A DNA stretch of 64,000 bases. Source: a virus. The notes beneath the pieces are model-generated. The model made no database searches. It saw only the letters and a program-made list of their open reading frames with translations, and was not told where the DNA came from. This document shows positions 649-46,706 of the stretch, piece by piece. Each line of letters starts with the position of its first letter. Position 1 is the stretch's first letter. A program made the translations under genes and the position numbers. Location: the IMG/VR virus record IMGVR_UViG_3300036834_000231, positions 32,283 to 96,282 of that record; one strand, given 5' to 3'.

Positions 649-1632
649 GTGAGAGTGCTGTTGTGCCAGATCGACGGTAAGATTCCGAACCTCGCGCTCA
701 TGCGAATCGCGGCATACCATCGGGCGAACGGTGACGAGGTGGAACTGCGCCACGGTGCGAACTTCATGCGTCTGTTGTGGGACGCGGCGCCAGACCTCGT
801 TTACGCCTCGGCCATTTTCGTGAAGTCGCGTCCCACGGTAGAGCGGCTGCTATCGATGTTTCCTCTAGCAGTGATCGGCGGCACAGGATGGGACATTGCG
901 CGCACGGTCGAGTCGGTCGGCATTGATTCAACCGCACTAGATTACACGTTGTACCCGCGCTTCCGGCAGTCCATCGGCTTTACGCAGCGCGGCTGCCGGC
1001 TGCGGTGTCCCTTTTGCGTGGTCCCGCAGAAGGAAGGCGCTATGCGGGAGCAGTCCTCGGTCTACGACATTTGGCGCGGCGATCCGTGGCCGCGGGAACT
1101 GCTACTGCTCGATAACGATTTCTTTGGCCAGCCACATTGGCGGGAGCGAGCCCGCGAGATACGCGACGGCGGATTCAAGGTGTCCTTCAATCAAGGCATT
1201 AACGCGCGCTTTCTCACGGACGAGGCGGCCGAGGCGATAGCCTCGCTCGACTACCGCGATGACGGCATGAAGGACAAGCGGATCTATACCGCGTGGGACA
1301 ACCTGAAGGACGAGCACCGCCTGTTCGCTGGCTTGAACCGACTCGTGCGGTACGGCGTGAAACCGGATCAGATCATGGTCTACATGCTCTGCGGCTATTG
1401 GCCGGGCGAGACGCAGGCAGACCGCGAGTATCGGCGTAAGCAGTTACGCGAGTTTGGGGCCAGACCGTTCCCCATGCCATATGTGCGGACCCTGGAGCTG
1501 GTCGGATTCCAGCGGTGGGTTATCGGCGCTTACGACAAGCGCATCCCGTGGGCAGAGTGGTTCGCGGCGCACTACCGGCCAGAGAAACTGCGACCGGAAT
1601 CGGCGTCACTCTCACTGTTGGAGAGCGAGTGA
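649..1632 (+). CDS. radical SAM domain protein
   Basis: The 327-residue product carries a CxxxCxxC cluster (C116, C120, C123 in RGCRLRCPFC), the signature that binds the 4Fe-4S cluster of radical S-adenosylmethionine enzymes. The roughly 110 residues before it look like a small alpha/beta domain, as in B12-binding-type radical SAM proteins, and no clear cobalamin motif is visible. The start is GTG at 649, preceded by AAGGAAG. Its stop overlaps the GTG start of the cytosine methyltransferase (GTGA), so the two are translationally coupled. A shared role in DNA or tRNA base modification is possible but not shown. Substrate unknown. Confidence 0.85.
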   Translation: MRVLLCQIDGKIPNLALMRIAAYHRANGDEVELRHGANFMRLLWDAAPDLVYASAIFVKSRPTVERLLSMFPLAVIGGTGWDIARTVESVGIDSTALDYTLYPRFRQSIGFTQRGCRLRCPFCVVPQKEGAMREQSSVYDIWRGDPWPRELLLLDNDFFGQPHWRERAREIRDGGFKVSFNQGINARFLTDEAAEAIASLDYRDDGMKDKRIYTAWDNLKDEHRLFAGLNRLVRYGVKPDQIMVYMLCGYWPGETQADREYRRKQLREFGARPFPMPYVRTLELVGFQRWVIGAYDKRIPWAEWFAAHYRPEKLRPESASLSLLESE

Positions 1633-2897
1633 CTTTTGGCTCCCTCTTCTCAGGCATTGGGGGCCTGGATCTAGGGCTCGATCGCGCTGGCTGGGAGTGC
1701 CGCTGGCAGGTGGAGAAGGACGAGTTTTGCGGGCGCGTGCTGGAGTCGCACTGGCCGGGCTTGAAGCAGTATCGGGACATCGCGCATGTCGCGCAGTTCG
1801 ATGAAGAAGGATGGAGGTTTCTTGACTTACCTGAATCAGTTGACTTACTCGCAGGGGGGTTCCCATGCACCGATCTCAGCGTCGCCGGCAAGCAAACCGG
1901 ACTCACCAACGCAGACGGCACGCCGACTCGCAGCGGCCTTTGGTTTGAGTTCGCCCGCCTTATTGGGGAGCTTAGACCCGGCTACGTTCTCGTTGAAAAC
2001 GTCAGCGGTGTCCTTGTTCACGACGCAATGCGACGAGTGGTCGGAGAGCTGGCCGGACTCGGGTATGTGGGATCTTGGCTCTGTCTACGAGCTGCGGACT
2101 TTGGCGCCAGTCACTTGCGTAAGCGGGTCTTCCTCGTCGCCGTCCGGTACGTGGCCGACAGCGAGCGCCTCGCTTGCGAACGACGGCGAGGATATCGAGA
2201 GTTGGAAGGCCCGCAAGGCGCGCATCTTAGCGAAGGGCTACAACGGCAACGGAATGGGGACGCCACTGACGATTGCGGCCACCACCTGGCCAACAGCGCG
2301 CTCGGAGGATGGCGAGAGTTGCGGGAATCACCCGGGGGCGGTGGACTCCTTAACGGGCGCGGCGCGCCTGTGGAACACGCCGCACGGGATGAGCAATCGG
2401 GACTCTCGGGGCAAGGTGGGGGGCTGCGGCGGGGGGCAATTTGCGTTGCAGGCGAATCACTGGGAGACGCCGCGAGCATCGACGGGAGGCCTGCGGGAGT
2501 ACGACGGCAAGCGCGGGGTGGGAGTGAACACACAGGCGGCTCACTGGCAGACGCCGGCGACGGACAGCTTTCGGAGCCGGGGCGGGGAACGCAAGGAAGA
2601 AATGGGGCTGGACCAGGAAGCCCGGGCTTTCACTTCGCTCCCGGACCCAGCGACCCCAGATGGGTTGACATCCTGCGAGTACGACCAGACCTCGCTCCAG
2701 CCCTGCCCGTCGCCGCCGACGAGGCGTCTCAATCCTCGTTTCGTCGAGTTTTTGATGGGTCTGCCGATAGGCTGGACCGAGCTATGAGTAATCGCACAAA
2801 GCGGTTATCCCGCCTCGGGAATGCCGTTGTGCCGGATGTGGCTGAGTGGTTAGGGCGCCGGTTAATGGAGTTCATACAATCGACGCCCACGCGATGA
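1629..2897 (+). CDS. DNA (cytosine-5-) methyltransferase
   Basis: The 422-residue product has the ordered C5-methyltransferase motifs: motif I (FGSLFSGIGGLDLGL), motif IV GGFPC with catalytic C80 followed by TDLSVAGKQTGL, motif VI ENV (123-125), motif VIII RKRVFLVA and motif X LGNAVVP near the C-terminus. The middle part (VADSER, LANSALGG, LGDAAS, LADAGDG) is the variable recognition region as in phage Dcm relatives. It would methylate cytosine in phage DNA, probably against restriction. I chose GTG 1629, which overlaps the radical SAM stop. The frame opens further upstream, but that part overlaps the previous gene and precedes motif I. A second long frame runs inside this gene. Confidence 0.92.
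   Translation: MTFGSLFSGIGGLDLGLDRAGWECRWQVEKDEFCGRVLESHWPGLKQYRDIAHVAQFDEEGWRFLDLPESVDLLAGGFPCTDLSVAGKQTGLTNADGTPTRSGLWFEFARLIGELRPGYVLVENVSGVLVHDAMRRVVGELAGLGYVGSWLCLRAADFGASHLRKRVFLVAVRYVADSERLACERRRGYRELEGPQGAHLSEGLQRQRNGDATDDCGHHLANSALGGWRELRESPGGGGLLNGRGAPVEHAARDEQSGLSGQGGGLRRGAICVAGESLGDAASIDGRPAGVRRQARGGSEHTGGSLADAGDGQLSEPGRGTQGRNGAGPGSPGFHFAPGPSDPRWVDILRVRPDLAPALPVAADEASQSSFRRVFDGSADRLDRAMSNRTKRLSRLGNAVVPDVAEWLGRRLMEFIQSTPTR
1786..2787 (+). CDS. overlapping ORF inside the cytosine methyltransferase gene
   Basis: A 333-codon frame lies wholly within the methyltransferase gene in a different phase. It does not read like noise. It has repeated WPTA / WETP / WQTPA blocks and ends NPRFVEFLMGLPIGWTEL, a pattern I associate with phage proteins linked to Dcm-type methyltransferases. 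Its first part (ISASPASKPDSP, SLKTSAVSLF) also fits that pattern. No ribosome binding site is obvious before ATG 1786. Either both frames are translated, or one frame preserves an ancestral sequence. The family assignment is from memory and is untested. Confidence 0.5.
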   Translation: MSRSSMKKDGGFLTYLNQLTYSQGGSHAPISASPASKPDSPTQTARRLAAAFGLSSPALLGSLDPATFSLKTSAVSLFTTQCDEWSESWPDSGMWDLGSVYELRTLAPVTCVSGSSSSPSGTWPTASASLANDGEDIESWKARKARILAKGYNGNGMGTPLTIAATTWPTARSEDGESCGNHPGAVDSLTGAARLWNTPHGMSNRDSRGKVGGCGGGQFALQANHWETPRASTGGLREYDGKRGVGVNTQAAHWQTPATDSFRSRGGERKEEMGLDQEARAFTSLPDPATPDGLTSCEYDQTSLQPCPSPPTRRLNPRFVEFLMGLPIGWTEL

Positions 2898-2903
2898 GTC
2901 GCT

Positions 2904-3686
2904 TCAGGCGGACTTCCTCTTCGCGGGCTTCCCTTTGAGAGAGGCCTGCAAGGCGACCATCAGATCGTTGGTCTCGCTCTGCGGCGGGCGCTTGGCCAAG
3001 GTGTGCACCTTATTCCCTTGCCGTTTGGCCTGTAGCAGTTTTTCCACGGATTGCTGGTAGCCGTCCACGTATTGCGCGTGGTCGAATTTGTCCGAGGTGG
3101 CGCGTAGCAATTGTTTAGCCAGCGCTAGTTCCTTCGCTTCGATCGGAATGGCTTCCAGCCCGAGGTGGGGCGCTGCGTGCACCTCCCCCTGGTAGAACAT
3201 GGTGTGGAAGACGAGCGTTCCGTTGTACGGCCGGATGACGATGACGTGTTCGCGCGAGTGCAGGGTAGCGCGCGCGATGGCGTACCGCTTCTCGGCGCGC
3301 AGGGCATCGTGCAATAGCTTGTAGCCCTTCATGCCGGCGGTGTCCGGTTCGAGGTAGTAGGACGACTCGAACAAGAGCGGATCGACTGCGTTCGCGGCGA
3401 CGCACTGTTCGATCTCCATGCTGTGCGAGCTGTCAGGCTGGCAATCCTTCAGCTCCTCATCGCTGACGGTCACGTATTGGTCCTTCGCCACTTCGTGGCC
3501 GCGGTGCGTATCCTTGCGGGTGATTTCCTTATTGCACTTGGGACACCACGTCTTGGTGTTGATGCGGCTGCCGCATTCGCTATGCAGCAAGTTGAATGAG
3601 ATTGATTCAGCCCGGGCGGCGATCGTCACCTTCACCGGGATGTTCACGAGTCCAAAGGAAATAGTGCCCTTCCAAATGGCGGCCAT
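2904..3686 (-). CDS. ku: Ku-like DNA end-binding protein
   Basis: The 260-residue product begins MAAIWKGTISFGLVNIPVKV, the hallmark of bacterial Ku. It continues through a core region (INTKTWCPKC...QYVTVSDEE, VDPLLFESSYYLEPD, KGYKLLHDAL) to a lysine-rich tail. Ku homodimers thread onto double-strand ends and recruit ligase in non-homologous end joining. The ATP-dependent ligase encoded just upstream on the same strand supports an NHEJ role, for example circularising or repairing phage DNA. The start codon overlaps the stop of a 17-codon leader ORF (TAATG). Confidence 0.93.
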   Translation of the reverse strand: MAAIWKGTISFGLVNIPVKVTIAARAESISFNLLHSECGSRINTKTWCPKCNKEITRKDTHRGHEVAKDQYVTVSDEELKDCQPDSSHSMEIEQCVAANAVDPLLFESSYYLEPDTAGMKGYKLLHDALRAEKRYAIARATLHSREHVIVIRPYNGTLVFHTMFYQGEVHAAPHLGLEAIPIEAKELALAKQLLRATSDKFDHAQYVDGYQQSVEKLLQAKRQGNKVHTLAKRPPQSETNDLMVALQASLKGKPAKRKSA

Positions 3687-3839: not shown

Positions 3840-4022
3840 TCATTCTTCTTCCACCTTGCAAGCTCTGTACGTAATCTCTATCTCTCGATACAACTCCATG
3901 TGCGTCTCGCACACATGGCACCACGCAAGACGATAAGAACACAGGAGGTCATTGCCGAAAAGCTCTGCGCCATTATCGAAGATGTGGCCGCAATTGGGGC
4001 AACGATAGGCAGTTGAGGTCAT
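3840..4022 (-). CDS. small zinc-ribbon protein (60 aa)
   Basis: The start MTSTAYRCPNCGHIF overlaps the ligase stop as ATGA (4022-4019), so translation is coupled to the ligase. CPNC (8-11) and CHVC later in the sequence form a plausible four-cysteine zinc ribbon, and the tail is acidic. Function unknown. Position between ligase and Ku suggests it belongs to the repair module. Confidence 0.65.
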   Translation of the reverse strand: MTSTAYRCPNCGHIFDNGAELFGNDLLCSYRLAWCHVCETHMELYREIEITYRACKVEEE

Positions 4023-4915
4023 TTCTTTCCTTTCGGCGCGACTATCTCTAGAGTCGGCTTCCCTTGGTTGGACGGCATTCTCATCGATCCTTTCGTGTGC
4101 AGTTGCGCGGCCGTGCATTCGGCGCGGCGGATGTCCCGGCGGACTCCGCGGTAAACCGCTTGGATCAGATCCCCTCCGATATCATGGCGATACAAGTATT
4201 CCACCTCGATGATTTGCCCGGCTTTGGGAATTTCCTGGTTGGGCGGGATGGTCACGGAGCCGACCGGCGTATCGTCCGCAAGCTTGATCTCGACGCTACG
4301 CTTCGCGCCACGCTGTTGGGCGACGATCACCGAGCAGGTGTTGACGAACTTGAATTTCAGGGCGGGGCCTCCGCTGTTGGGGCGGCCGCCTGAGTAGGCA
4401 GCATCGCGGCGTTTGAAGACTACGCCTTCCAACCCATTTTCGTGGATGGAGCGGTAGAGGGTTTGCTTGTCTTGGACGCCAAAGGCGGAAACCACGGGTA
4501 AGATACGCCTGGGAGGATTCTTCCCGCCCCATATGGCTTCGATGTAGCTAATGCGAAACTCGCAGGCCAGCCGCCATATCGCGTTGTCGCCGTACTGAAG
4601 AAGGTCGAAGCAGATGTAGTCGTCGCCGATCAGTTCGCCGTCGAGCACCAGACGCGAGGGAAGCGATAGCGTGGCGTCTACCACGGTTTGCGGGAGGGTG
4701 ATCGGCTTCCCGGTTCGGGAGATCCCCCGGGGCCTGGCGCCGGTGCGCGATTCGAGACGAACGCGCACTCCGTCGAATTTGGGTTGCAGGAGCCACGCCT
4801 CGTCTGCGAGAAGGCGTTCCATTTCCGCCCTGTCGATCGAGGTCAATAGCTGGTGGCCGGGGATCGGCTGTTCGTCTGCGGCGTGAGAGTCTCGATGGTG
4901 AAGGGGTTTTGGCAT
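4019..4915 (-). CDS. ATP-dependent DNA ligase
   Basis: The product has the adenylation motif QPKFDGVR with nucleophile K46, then LVLDGELI, LEGVVFKR and LKFKF, the ordered ligase motifs, followed by a small OB-like domain (IIEVEYLYR). At 298 residues it is about the size of a stand-alone LigD ligase domain, with no polymerase or nuclease domain. It would seal nicks and Ku-bound ends. I use the MPKPLHH start. An upstream ATG ten codons earlier overlaps a TGCTATACT box that looks like the promoter. The 3' end overlaps the zinc-ribbon gene. Confidence 0.9.
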   Translation of the reverse strand: MPKPLHHRDSHAADEQPIPGHQLLTSIDRAEMERLLADEAWLLQPKFDGVRVRLESRTGARPRGISRTGKPITLPQTVVDATLSLPSRLVLDGELIGDDYICFDLLQYGDNAIWRLACEFRISYIEAIWGGKNPPRRILPVVSAFGVQDKQTLYRSIHENGLEGVVFKRRDAAYSGGRPNSGGPALKFKFVNTCSVIVAQQRGAKRSVEIKLADDTPVGSVTIPPNQEIPKAGQIIEVEYLYRHDIGGDLIQAVYRGVRRDIRRAECTAAQLHTKGSMRMPSNQGKPTLEIVAPKGKK

Positions 4916-4995
4916 ATATATACGAGTGCTAACAGTATAGCACATAAATAATATACGGAAAAATTAGCCGGGTCGAGACCGGTTATGCTTTGGTC

Positions 4996-27596: not shown

Positions 27597-28904
27597 GTGA
27601 CGACGCGGGAGAGTGAGAGCGCGCCGGTGGTGGACGCTGACGTCGACGACCGGGAGATATCAGTGAGTTTCGAGATTCTCTGTGGGGGCGCGCTTAAGGT
27701 ATTGGGGACGCTGGCGGAGGGGATGGCGCAAACGTGCGTGACGAGCCCCCCGTATTGGGGGCTGCGGGATTACGGCACGGCGACATGGGCGGGCGGGGAT
27801 GCCGCATGCGACCATGTGGCGGGCGAGATTCGGAGAGGATTGGGCTTGGCTGCCCTAGGCGAGCAGTATCGCGGTGGCGGTCACAAACAAGCTAAGGTTT
27901 CCAAGCTTCAATACGTCGGGACATGCGGCAAGTGCGGAGCGCGCCGCCTCGATCAGCAGCTCGGCCTCGAGCGGACGCCACAGGAATACATCGCCAACAT
28001 CGTCGAGATCTTCCGCGAAGTGCGGCGCGTGCTGAAGGACGATGGCACGTTGTGGCTGGTCCTGGGGGATTGCTACGCGACGGGCGGCGGGAAAGTGGGG
28101 AATTGCCCGGGCGGTGGGGCGCAGGGGGATCGCTGGAAGGGCTTCCGGGGCAATCATCTAGTGGATAGCAAGCGAAACCCCGAGTCAATCCCGCTCGGGC
28201 CGATGACGCAGCCGAACCGCATGCCGCTGCCCGGATTCAAGCCGAAAGACCTCGTGGGCATCCCGTGGCGCGTGGCCCTTGCCCTGCAGGCGGATGGCTG
28301 GTGGTTGCGCTCCGACATCATTTGGAGTAAGCCGAACCCGATGCCGGAGAGCGTCCGGGACCGGCCGACCAAGGCCCATGAGTACGTGTTTTTGATGGCC
28401 AAGCAGGAGCGCTACTACTACGACGCGGATGCGATCAAAGAGCCGGGGGTCGCGGATAGCCTTGCCCGCTATGGGCGCGGGCGAAGCACAACGCATAAGT
28501 GGGCGAACGGCGGGCCGGGGAATCAGACGATCGCCAAGAGCTTTGCGCACATGGAGAAAGCCGGCTCGGGCATGCGTAACAAGCGCACCGTTTGGACCAT
28601 CGCGACGTGTCCCACGCCCGAGGCGCACTTTGCCACTTATCCGATAGAGTTGGCCGAGCTGTGCATTCTCGCCGGCTGCCCGGCCGGGGGGGTGGTGCTC
28701 GATCCGTTCTCGGGCGTGGCGACCACGGGTCTCGCGGCGCTAAAGCATGGGCGCCGTTACCTCGGCATCGAACTGAATCCCAAGTACGTCGAGATGAGCC
28801 ACCGACGCGCGCAGAAGTATTATCCGCTGCTCGCGGAAGGCCCGGCGTTCGATGGGGAAGCGAGCGCCGTCCGCAAGTTTTTATCGACAGGCAAATTCTC
28901 GTAA
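27597..28904 (+). CDS. DNA methyltransferase, beta class (N4-C or N6-A)
   Basis: The catalytic TSPPYWGLRDYG (49 onward) comes before FSGVATTG (371-378), the permuted order of beta-class amino-methyltransferases. TSPPYW favours N4-cytosine, but N6-adenine members share it. CGKCGARRLDQQLGLE in the insert is a likely zinc site. The start at GTG 27597 is uncertain: the conserved part begins near GTG 27663. It is bracketed by direct repeats, which suggests a cassette. Confidence 0.88.
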   Translation: MTTRESESAPVVDADVDDREISVSFEILCGGALKVLGTLAEGMAQTCVTSPPYWGLRDYGTATWAGGDAACDHVAGEIRRGLGLAALGEQYRGGGHKQAKVSKLQYVGTCGKCGARRLDQQLGLERTPQEYIANIVEIFREVRRVLKDDGTLWLVLGDCYATGGGKVGNCPGGGAQGDRWKGFRGNHLVDSKRNPESIPLGPMTQPNRMPLPGFKPKDLVGIPWRVALALQADGWWLRSDIIWSKPNPMPESVRDRPTKAHEYVFLMAKQERYYYDADAIKEPGVADSLARYGRGRSTTHKWANGGPGNQTIAKSFAHMEKAGSGMRNKRTVWTIATCPTPEAHFATYPIELAELCILAGCPAGGVVLDPFSGVATTGLAALKHGRRYLGIELNPKYVEMSHRRAQKYYPLLAEGPAFDGEASAVRKFLSTGKFS

Positions 28905-43838: not shown

Positions 43839-46706
43839 ATGGCCGAACAGAGCGCCACGCTCATGCGCGCTTTGCTGGTCGAAGCGGGCGAGCGCCGCCA
43901 GCAGAAGAAACGCAAGGATGCGAAACGCGAGCTGGCTCATGCCAGTCTGCTTGATTTCATCGAGTACACCAAACCGGCTTATCGCGCCGGCTGGTTTCAT
44001 CGGCAGGTCTGCGCGATTCTCGAACGCTTCCTCGCCGACGTGCTCGCCGGAAAACGTCCGCGCATCATCATCACGGCGCCCCCGCAGCACGGCAAGCTGC
44101 TCGCAATGGAGACGCCCACCTTTACTCCCGGCGGGTGGAGAGCGCACGGAGATTTAAAACCGGGCGACTTCGTTTTCGGCCGCTACGGACAACCGGTCGA
44201 GGTGCTGGCCGTCAGCGAGCCCGACTGGGCTGATCGGGAAGTCGAGTTTACCGATGGCGGCGTTATTCATTGCCACGCAGCCCATGAATGGGTGGTGTTC
44301 GATCGAAGAGGTGGCGCTCTTGCCCGCACCTTAGAGACTCGCCAGCTAGAACGTGAGTGTTGCCGCTGGCAGGTCGATCCGAGCATCATACTTCCCCAGA
44401 AGGAAACCCGGCGGGGCATCGTGGATATCCGCCGATGTAAACCGCGAGAAGGGCGCTGCATCCAGGTCGAAGGCGGCGTGTATTTGGCGGGTGAGACGTT
44501 TATTCCCACGCATAACAGTGAGATGGTCTCGCGGCGCTTTCCCTGCTGGGCGATCGGGCGCCATCCGGGGTTGCGGTTTCTGTGCGGCAGCTACGGGGCG
44601 ACTTGGGCCGAGCAGCTTTCCGGGGACCGGCAGCGCATCCTCGACCTGCCGGAATACAAGGAGTTGTTTCCGAACTTCAAACTATCCAAGCGGCGCGCCG
44701 ATTACTTGGAGGTAGCTGGCGCGGACGGCTTCATGCTGGCCGCAGGCGTGGATTGCGGCATCTCGGGCCGGTCGAGCGACATCGGGCTCATCGACGATCC
44801 GGTGCGCGGCTATAAGGACGCGGTTTCCGAACTCACGCGCAACGCCATCTGGAACTGGTACAAGACAGACTTTTATTCCCGGCTGCAGAGCGGCGGCGGC
44901 GTGATTGTCATGATGTGCATGACCGGCGATACGCGGGTGCTGCGCTCGGATGGTAGCGAAACATTGTTGCGAGACATCCGGCCCGGTGATGGGGTTGCAA
45001 CATACCGAGATGGCGCGCTTTCCACGTCAAAAGTACTGAACTGGATCAATCATGGGCCTGATTCTGTGTATGAAATCAGGATGAGTTCCGGCATAACCGT
45101 CAAAGCGAACGAGCGGCATCCATTCCTGGTTCGCGTTGGCGAGGAACTGCAATGGCTGAGACTGAGAGGCTTACGCCCGGGCCAAGAAATCTGCCGGGTC
45201 AAAAGGGCAAGTGGAAGGGCAAGAAGTGTGCTTTCGAAGGCTGTGGCGAGCCAGTCGTATGCCGCAGCTATTGCAACTCGCACTACAACAGAAAGCGTTG
45301 GGCTGATGGAGTACGTCCACCCTCAATCAATCCCGCGTCCAGACGGGCAGCTCGCGTCAAGTACCGATACGGCATCAGTGCTGAAGAGTACGACCGAAAG
45401 TTCGCTGAACAGGCCGGATTGTGCGCGATCTGTCGGAAGCCACCGGGAAAAAACGTACGCGCGCATTGGGGCGGCAAGCTGTGCGTGGATCACTGCCACG
45501 ATACGGGCACCGTTCGCGCGCTTCTCTGCAACGACTGCAACCTCGCCGCCGGATACATTCAAACCGCCGACGCCGCAGAAGCTCTCGCAGCTTACCTCCG
45601 ACTTCACGCTGGACCGGATCGAGGAGATTCGAGCGGCGAAAAGTGAAGATGTCTTCGACATAGAGGTCGCGGAAACGGAGAACTTTATCGCCAGCGGTCT
45701 AGTCAGCCACAATACTCGCTGGCACATGGATGACCTGATCGGCCGGCTGCTCGACGAGGCGCGGGCGGGCAGCGGAGACCAATGGCAGGAGTACAATTTC
45801 CCCGCTTTCGCGGAAGAGGACGAGCCGAATCGCCGGCAGGGCGAGCCGCTCTCGCCCGAGCGCTATGACCAGCAGTCGCTTGAATCGATCAAAAGGGTGC
45901 AGGGCTCTTATGCCTGGAGCGCTCTTTATCAGGGTCGCCCGACCCCGGCCGAAGGACTGCTCCTGCGGCGCGATTACTGGCGTTATTGGAACGCGAACGA
46001 TTTGCCGCAGTTCGAGCTTATCGTCATCTCGCTCGATTGCACCTTCAAGGTTACGACTGACTCCGATCATGTCTCGCTGCTCGCAATCGGCTTCGTCGGC
46101 TCGCGTGGCTATCTGCTCGACCGCACTTGCGAACGCATGGGCTACGTTGCAACGAAAGCCGAGGCGCTGCGGCTCGCGCGCAAGCACAAGGCGCATGTGC
46201 TCTTGATCGAGGATGCGGCGAACGGACCGGCGGTATGCGAGGAATTGCGCCGCAACAGCGGACAGCTTACCGTGATTCCGCTGCCGACCGAGGGCGGGAA
46301 ACTGGCGCGCGCCTGGCCTTTTTCAGCGGACCTCGAAGCGGGCAACGTGCTGCTGCCCGAGGATCAGAACTGGTCGGGGGAAATCGTCGATTATGCCTCG
46401 AAGTTTCCCGCGACGCCGATGGATCACGACATCGACGCACTGACGCAGGCCTTCAACTGGCGGCGCGAAAACCTGCACGGCTTGTTTGCCTATTACGAAG
46501 CGGAGGCGAATCGCATTGTGAATCCCGATCAAAAAACCATGGTCAAGGTGGCGCTCGCGGAAGAGACGCCCGCTTGCCCGCAGTGCCAATCGTTCGCGGT
46601 GCGCTTGTTCGGTTCGACGTACCGCTGCAATCAATGCGGGGTCGAATGGCAGAAGCCGGGCGCGGAGCCCGAAGCGCCCACCACGCGGGCGCGCCAGCTT
46701 ACTTGA
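43839..46706 (+). CDS. terL: large terminase subunit with two inteins
   Basis: The 955-residue precursor would splice to about 549 residues. The ATPase P-loop PPQHGK (81-86) continues after intein 1 as SEMVSRRFP. Walker B is LIDDPV (317-322). VIVMM joins TRWHMDDLIG after intein 2. Nuclease acids D733 (SLDCTF), E791/D792 (IEDAANG) and D862-D866 (MDHDID) are present. A zinc ribbon (C913, C916, C930, C933) ends the protein, an uncommon addition. TerL translocates DNA into the prohead and cuts it. It follows terS. Confidence 0.93.
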   Translation: MAEQSATLMRALLVEAGERRQQKKRKDAKRELAHASLLDFIEYTKPAYRAGWFHRQVCAILERFLADVLAGKRPRIIITAPPQHGKLLAMETPTFTPGGWRAHGDLKPGDFVFGRYGQPVEVLAVSEPDWADREVEFTDGGVIHCHAAHEWVVFDRRGGALARTLETRQLERECCRWQVDPSIILPQKETRRGIVDIRRCKPREGRCIQVEGGVYLAGETFIPTHNSEMVSRRFPCWAIGRHPGLRFLCGSYGATWAEQLSGDRQRILDLPEYKELFPNFKLSKRRADYLEVAGADGFMLAAGVDCGISGRSSDIGLIDDPVRGYKDAVSELTRNAIWNWYKTDFYSRLQSGGGVIVMMCMTGDTRVLRSDGSETLLRDIRPGDGVATYRDGALSTSKVLNWINHGPDSVYEIRMSSGITVKANERHPFLVRVGEELQWLRLRGLRPGQEICRVKRASGRARSVLSKAVASQSYAAAIATRTTTESVGLMEYVHPQSIPRPDGQLASSTDTASVLKSTTESSLNRPDCARSVGSHREKTYARIGAASCAWITATIRAPFARFSATTATSPPDTFKPPTPQKLSQLTSDFTLDRIEEIRAAKSEDVFDIEVAETENFIASGLVSHNTRWHMDDLIGRLLDEARAGSGDQWQEYNFPAFAEEDEPNRRQGEPLSPERYDQQSLESIKRVQGSYAWSALYQGRPTPAEGLLLRRDYWRYWNANDLPQFELIVISLDCTFKVTTDSDHVSLLAIGFVGSRGYLLDRTCERMGYVATKAEALRLARKHKAHVLLIEDAANGPAVCEELRRNSGQLTVIPLPTEGGKLARAWPFSADLEAGNVLLPEDQNWSGEIVDYASKFPATPMDHDIDALTQAFNWRRENLHGLFAYYEAEANRIVNPDQKTMVKVALAEETPACPQCQSFAVRLFGSTYRCNQCGVEWQKPGAEPEAPTTRARQLT
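44097..44516 (+). other. intein 1 (class 3-like mini-intein) in TerL P-loop
   Basis: Residues 87-226 interrupt HGK|S. The first residue is Leu instead of Cys/Ser. Instead the class 3 residues can be placed: W151 two after H149 (block B), C207 in GRCIQV (block F) and T224 in FIPTHN (block G). It ends H225-N226 with Ser +1. About 140 residues and no endonuclease, so it can splice but not home. Confidence 0.85.
44916..45713 (+). other. intein 2 (class 1) in TerL, with out-of-frame HNH gene
   Basis: Residues 360-625. The N-terminal part CMTGDTRVLRSDGSETLLRD ... RHPFLVRVGEELQWLRLRGLRPG and the C-terminal part EDVFDIEVAETENFIASGLVSHN|T form a standard splicing domain with Cys1, His-Asn end and Thr +1. 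The linker between them (about 455-585) is Ser/Thr/Ala-rich filler in the intein frame because it is read out of frame over an HNH gene. Confidence 0.88.
45152..45646 (+). CDS. HNH (endonuclease VII-like) gene nested in intein 2, other frame
   Basis: The 164-residue product has a zinc knuckle (C26, C31, C37, C41) and YGISAEEYDRKFAEQAGLCAICRKP then CVDHCHDTG (D113-H114-H116) and ALLCNDCNLAAGYIQ (N130), the layout of recombination endonuclease VII/HNH proteins. It is in a different phase from terL. Its first 15 or so codons overlap intein N-domain code and its end overlaps the start of the intein C-part. Probably the homing endonuclease of the element, expressed as a free protein. No ribosome binding site is obvious. 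Confidence 0.88.
   Translation: MAETERLTPGPRNLPGQKGKWKGKKCAFEGCGEPVVCRSYCNSHYNRKRWADGVRPPSINPASRRAARVKYRYGISAEEYDRKFAEQAGLCAICRKPPGKNVRAHWGGKLCVDHCHDTGTVRALLCNDCNLAAGYIQTADAAEALAAYLRLHAGPDRGDSSGEK

Follow-up and report, generated by a model that had tools for sequence, protein, structure and literature searches.

The small polypeptide of the C5-cytosine methyltransferase M.EcoHK31I is encoded in an alternative frame inside the gene of the large one, the two chains being 309 and 176 amino acids long, and the multispecific phage C5-methyltransferases of the SPbeta group are single chains from one frame that carry several TRDs of about 40 amino acids. In C5-methyltransferases the variable region and the TRD lie between motifs VIII and IX, according to the relevant part of PMC3404938. 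The same part of that source describes M.EcoHK31I (YGGCCR; Lee et al. 1995) as a two-polypeptide C5-methyltransferase, with motifs I-VIII, X and a predicted TRD on the larger subunit and only motif IX on the smaller polypeptide, and M.AquI (CYCGRG, alpha/beta) as a naturally split enzyme with the C-terminal motifs on the second polypeptide (PMC3404938). By this description M.EcoHK31I already exemplifies a methyltransferase of two polypeptides in which motif IX stands apart. In the openly licensed literature no account was found of a frame overlap that spans phages and carries a long array of shuffled modules, M.EcoHK31I and M.AquI being mentioned there as split enzymes only, which is weak evidence of absence.

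The window analysed here, a stretch of 64,000 nucleotides from a virus record of 96,282 bases, contains an inner frame at 1786-2787 that is open for 333 codons and lies in +1 relative to an outer frame at 1515-2897 (Table 1). In the initial annotation the outer frame was said to keep all C5-methyltransferase motifs, which has to be corrected: it carries motifs I-VIII and X, and motif IX (RLNPRFVEFLMGLPIGW) is absent from it and closes the inner +1 frame. Judged from its sequence, the locus most probably specifies, in overlapping frames, the two polypeptides of a C5-cytosine DNA methyltransferase whose motifs are divided as in M.EcoHK31I, a reading to which we assign a probability of about 85%. 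The outer product (alpha) would be translated from an upstream GTG and fold the catalytic large domain with motifs I-VIII and X, and the inner product (beta), translated from an internal start, would give the small-domain part, consisting of an array of W-x-TP modules and then motif IX. The alpha and beta chains would assemble into one enzyme methylating cytosines of the phage's own DNA, and this self-methylation would presumably counter host restriction; that both proteins are made from the gene, form a heterodimer and have an anti-restriction role is what we infer from the arrangement.

The likeness to M.EcoHK31I rests on the motif split as described for that enzyme, in which the large subunit carries motifs I-VIII and X and the second polypeptide motif IX. 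The locus differs in being a phage gene and in its beta, which is nearly twice the size of the small M.EcoHK31I polypeptide and has five W-x-TP modules. M.AquI is resembled by relatives from Mycobacterium, Streptomyces and Gordonia phages (L011-L015), whereas the window keeps motif X in alpha, does not place IX and X together on the second polypeptide and has an overlap of about 1 kb. The recognition-like region of the window is in beta, whereas the predicted TRD of M.EcoHK31I is assigned to the large subunit in the description consulted (PMC3404938).

Table 1. Positions in the window of the predicted subunits and their motifs, modules and candidate start sites
Feature	Position	Strand	Remarks
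Alpha subunit, C5-cytosine methyltransferase large-domain gene (predicted)	1629..2897	+	422 codons from putative start GTG 1629 (ORF from 1515); motifs I-VIII and X, without motif IX
Beta subunit, inner +1 frame (predicted)	1786..2787	+	333 codons from ATG 1786, or possibly 321 from TTG 1822
Candidate beta start region atGGAGGtttcTTG	1811..1824	+	Shine-Dalgarno-like GGAGG ahead of TTG 1822
GGFPC, catalytic Cys motif of alpha	1854..1868	+	From translation; Cys80 (GTG-1629 numbering) invariant in 23 aligned alphas
ENV motif of alpha	1995..2003	+	From alignment; E123 and N124 invariant, V125 nearly invariant
Beta module 1 (WPTASASLANDGEDIESWKARKARILAKGYNGNGMGTPLTIAATT)	2152..2286	+	Family common to L006, L007 and L008
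Beta module 2 (WPTARSEDGESCGNHPGAVDSLTGAARL)	2287..2370	+	Family in 20 loci, ordinal positions 2-7
Beta module 3 (WNTPHGMSNRDSRGKVGGCGGGQFALQANH)	2371..2460	+	Family in 9 loci
Beta module 4 (WETPRASTGGLREYDGKRGVGVNTQAAH)	2461..2544	+	From block clustering
Beta module 5 (WQTPATDSFRSRGGERKEEMGLDQEARAF...) and linker to motif IX	2545..2727	+	Module relatives in 15 loci; from alignment
LNPRFVEFLMGLPIGW, C5-methyltransferase motif IX	2728..2775	+	Beta frame only; pLDDT 85-93; profile matches monomeric motif IX-X
LGNAVVP, motif X of alpha	2814..2834	+	Downstream of inner stop; corresponding stretch of monomeric control L087 aligns with M.HhaI

Directly upstream of alpha lies a radical SAM-like protein gene (window 649-1632; phrog_9298, E 3.9e-48), whose stop codon shares the sequence GTGA with the probable start of alpha. 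GTG 1629 was favoured as the putative start of the outer gene, and is the more likely one, because its GTGA overlaps the upstream stop and comes after GGAG. On the other side the methyltransferase adjoins a Ku gene (PF02735, window 2904-3686, minus strand), and an ATP-dependent DNA ligase gene (PF01068, window 4019-4945, minus strand) is nearby; by their domain matches the two would be a virus-encoded end-joining pair. A second DNA methyltransferase, of the N6/N4 type (PF01555, E 3.5e-46), is found at window 27597-28904. The terminase large-subunit ORF (window 43839-46706, 955 aa) has an intein at residues 392-625 (Intein_splicing, E 1e-14) and, on inspection by eye, a further insert resembling an intein, which follows PPQHGK at about residues 90-226.

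Alpha belongs to the C5-cytosine DNA methyltransferases of PF00145 and has the large-domain motifs, including the catalytic PC and ENV; PF00145 matched the outer ORF with E 2.2e-42 over residues 40-212 only, and TIGR00675 of NCBIfam also matched. GGFPC is motif IV and ENV motif VI. The usual monomeric form, with motif IX and TRD in one polypeptide, was not found in the outer frame. In the AlphaFold model of alpha the large domain is confident and its fold matches M.HaeIII (1dct; 177 columns, E 2.3e-14) and M.HhaI. Almost all of residues 196-337 have pLDDT below 50 in this model, which is weak evidence of disorder in this part of alpha, and residues 187-340 are 25% glycine. The low pLDDT and the glycine content, together with the codon-position result given below, suggest that over the module array alpha is a glycine-rich linker from motif VIII to X and beta the functional reading. 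The beta modules and the alpha linker are about equally poor in hydrophobic residues (0.17 vs 0.14).

Beta ends in RLNPRFVEFLMGLPIGWTEL. A profile comparison of inner-frame C-termini with monomeric C-termini gave a probability of 98.5 and E 2e-15, the inner profile consisting of 17 rows, of which four also have motif X, and the aligned stretch spanning motifs IX and X. When the monomeric relative L087 was searched against the PDB with phmmer, its RRLTPRECERLQGFPDDW aligned with RKLHPRECARVMGYPDSY of M.HhaI, after which comes the GN motif, the M.HhaI sequence being that of the M.HhaI variant of the top row; this aligned stretch is what we take to be motif IX. The identity of motif IX was set through L087 and M.HhaI and through the profile-profile comparison because a PDB sequence search with the beta of Streptomyces phage Samy gave chance matches only. 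Searches of the beta proteins against Pfam and NCBIfam gave nothing significant. The inner protein matches phrog_1008, labelled DNA methyltransferase, over residues 43-228 (E 3.8e-18) and is by profile a member of that PHROG, whose library label mentions neither overlapping frames nor motif IX; the second gene of Samy is annotated as related to it. The AlphaFold model of beta is poor (mean pLDDT 56, pTM 0.24) and confident only at the motif-IX end.

W-x-TP-type blocks start at residues 123, 168, 196, 226 and 254 of the window's beta. Over 99 inner proteins the module pattern, which also picks up an N-terminal block around a W/L-K/R-T-S motif, gave 301 blocks with a median length of 34 residues and 1 to 12 starts per protein. 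Clustering yielded 42 module families present in at least two loci and 16 in at least four; the last block of the window, module 5, was not itself clustered, its family being listed in the clustering. A given module family occurs at differing ordinal positions, an example being the SESCGNHP block, which was found in 20 loci at positions 2 to 7, and such position-shifting families are what cassette exchange would leave. The beta modules presumably recognise DNA, since they lie between motifs VIII and IX, the site of the variable region and the TRD.

The arrangement was followed through viral and cellular sequences. A first pass covered 166 sequences, namely the window and 165 loci, duplicates included and partly drawn with the inner frame, and motif IX was in +1 inside the outer ORF in 121 of them (93 non-redundant at 90%). 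For an unbiased count, the best 80 of 222 loci found with the outer alignment alone were taken, and 73 non-redundant loci were left when 7 duplicates had been dropped; the training peptides of the motif-IX profile, 42 in number, came from contigs outside the tested set. Of these 73 viral loci, 55 had their best motif-IX match in +1 (52 of them with at least 10 bits), 8 in frame 0, 1 in +2 and none on the reverse strand, and 9 had no match. Two of the frame-0 loci, L029 and L072, fit a single indel in the overlap type and the other six look monomeric. The nine loci without a match are L069, L087 and L098, assigned as monomeric by eye or pattern, L059 and L068, where inspection of +1 by eye shows a stretch resembling motif IX, and L041, L044, L055 and L061, whose sequences are truncated, short or ambiguous. 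In relatives that have motif IX in the outer frame, the +1 tail is interrupted by 1-12 stops. Motif IX was seen in a shifted frame near the C-terminus in L029 (= L005), L072 and L040, in each case consistent with a single indel, whether genuine or a sequencing error.

When the inner alignment was used to scan genomes of bacteria and archaea, which is a biased draw, motif IX was in +1 within the alpha ORF in 70 of the best 80 of 138 loci, in +1 outside it in 4, in frame 0 in 4 and in +2 in 2; the record titles name Proteobacteria, Acidobacteria, Bacteroidetes, Clostridia, Planctomycetota, Actinomycetota and others. In the genome loci L207, L233 and L246 alpha stops early and beta is open through motif IX. 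A quick tree of the alpha large domain was built from 75 hand-chosen rows (53 overlap type, 9 AquI-like and 13 monomeric; 2 of 77 dropped as shorter than 110 aa), with change counts that are descriptive only; the labels cluster in it, and the AquI-like genome loci L207, L210 and L233/L246 fall inside overlap-type clades.

Homologues of the inner frame that are single-coded were found in Mycobacterium phages BabyBack, GaugeLDP and Stasia, Streptomyces phage Samy and Gordonia phage Geodirt, where a +1 gene with W/L-P-T-P modules and motifs IX and X extends after the stop of the catalytic gene. The module core TDAASAARHTTTTGVM is common to BabyBack and GaugeLDP, where it lies at the outer gene's end or past it, and to the overlapping locus L003. 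In Paenibacillus phages Bloom and Likha and E. coli phages K1G and fTaEco01 both frames were annotated as genes by the GenBank submitters, and the inner gene of Bloom has GGGAGGTG upstream of its ATG.

Programmed ribosomal frameshifting could join the frames into a fused chain of motifs I-VIII, modules and motif IX instead of two separately started subunits, as would fit L011-L015, in which the second frame carries both IX and X downstream of the alpha stop, and L007, which has both IX and X in frame 0. Motif X is, however, in the alpha frame in the window and in 85 of the 93 non-redundant loci (8 show no alpha motif X by the pattern used), and one shift cannot deliver X with IX. Start codons with a Shine-Dalgarno-like site are also enriched near the beta N-terminus, being present in 79/93 loci vs 33/93 in the +2 control, and frameshifting is considered quite improbable. 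For the two separately started subunits of the preferred reading, beta may begin at TTG 1822 rather than at ATG 1786; GGAGG sits four bases upstream of TTG 1822, and no Shine-Dalgarno sequence was found upstream of ATG 1786.

Still less probable is that the inner ORF is an untranslated by-product of the composition and GC-rich codon choice of the outer gene. The sequence does show GC-rich L/V-A-D-A codons that give W-P-T-P when read one base later, and the beta model is poor. In synonymous shuffles with the outer protein fixed and the codons shuffled, 500 per locus in 92 of the 93 loci (one dropped for unclear bases), the outer genes alone yielded +1 runs averaging 153 codons, but the observed mean was 308. 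None of the 500 shuffles of the window reached its stop-free +1 run of 340 codons (shuffle mean 124), and its +2 frame was as in the shuffles; the two protein-like frames over about 1 kb proposed in the initial annotation, with W-x-TP blocks in the inner one, are thus confirmed as beyond chance. The +1 run was at or below 1% in 69/92 loci and at or below 5% in 83/92, the +2 control giving 1/92 and 4/92, and nine of the 92 failed the 5% test. Also against an untranslated by-product are the near restriction of motif IX to +1, the single-coded homologues, the closed +1 tail of monomeric relatives, a gene of a Paenibacillus phage that is arranged in this way at a GC content of 47%, and the constraint on the inner frame, including the reversal of codon positions described next.

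Divergence at outer codon positions 1/2/3 was compared in 8 window-like sequences, whose 28 pairs are not independent, so that the values are descriptive and not probabilities:.214/.151/.539 in the 5' flank,.215/.141/.332 in the overlap with motifs I-VIII,.414/.318/.331 in the module region and.290/.214/.575 in the 3' flank. Outer position 1, which is inner position 3, varied more than outer position 3 in 25/28 pairs over the modules, and the flanks had the normal order in 26/26 pairs. The same pattern was seen over the array in 38 other pairs (.293/.216/.246). Position 3 varied most in each of the two parts of the monomeric controls (.303/.231/.532 and.468/.437/.534), and in three mycobacteriophages the second gene, which is single-coded, gave ordinary coding in its own frame (.206/.166/.357). 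Over the module array the inner frame appears on these values to be the more constrained one, and the DNA there would evolve mainly under the constraint of beta because alpha is a glycine-rich linker. On the synonymous shuffles, the codon-position divergence and the monomeric controls the untranslated by-product was rejected. Exchange of frames by indel, with one functional frame per phage and the other a decaying remnant, has in its favour the three loci with a shifted motif IX, as one indel would give, and is scarcely credible given that both frames are open together up to motif IX in 55/55 loci (no +1 stop between motifs VIII and IX in 6286 codons) and that third positions are constrained in both the I-VIII and the module overlaps.

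Dual coding is well supported by these comparisons. The suggestion of true dual coding in the initial annotation is borne out by both independent homologues of the inner frame, namely the phrog_1008 match and the modules and motif IX in the second gene of BabyBack and GaugeLDP past the outer stop, and inner-frame constraint, seen in the drop of outer third-position divergence in the overlap and the reversal over the modules. Its other suggestion, a fusion history, is more aptly described as a single enzyme divided between two frames.

For the beta of this two-polypeptide enzyme a further, tentative reading is that the array forms a separate subunit of recognition cassettes of about 34 residues, 1 to 12 per protein by pattern, which recombine in a second frame over the passenger linker of alpha. 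Such an enzyme might be multispecific, one gene serving against several restriction systems and being re-targeted by module exchange. It would share with the SPbeta group several short exchangeable recognition-like units, whereas those enzymes are single chains in one frame and the array here is a separate subunit in an overlapping frame. If the cassette reading is true, each swap must leave both frames open.

Double coding over about 1 kb that is conserved in numerous phages and prophage-like loci, and whose two products are parts of the same enzyme, would be a rare clear case in which both functions are guessable and testable. The results suggest that M.EcoHK31I is an example of a widespread phage arrangement and no isolated curiosity. 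They also suggest that many phage cytosine methylases, as annotated, lack the recognition half if the second frame has not been annotated too, and alpha genes of the overlap type would be expected to be inactive when cloned alone. Exchange of cassettes, constrained by the two frames, may be how the specificity of phage DNA modification evolves.
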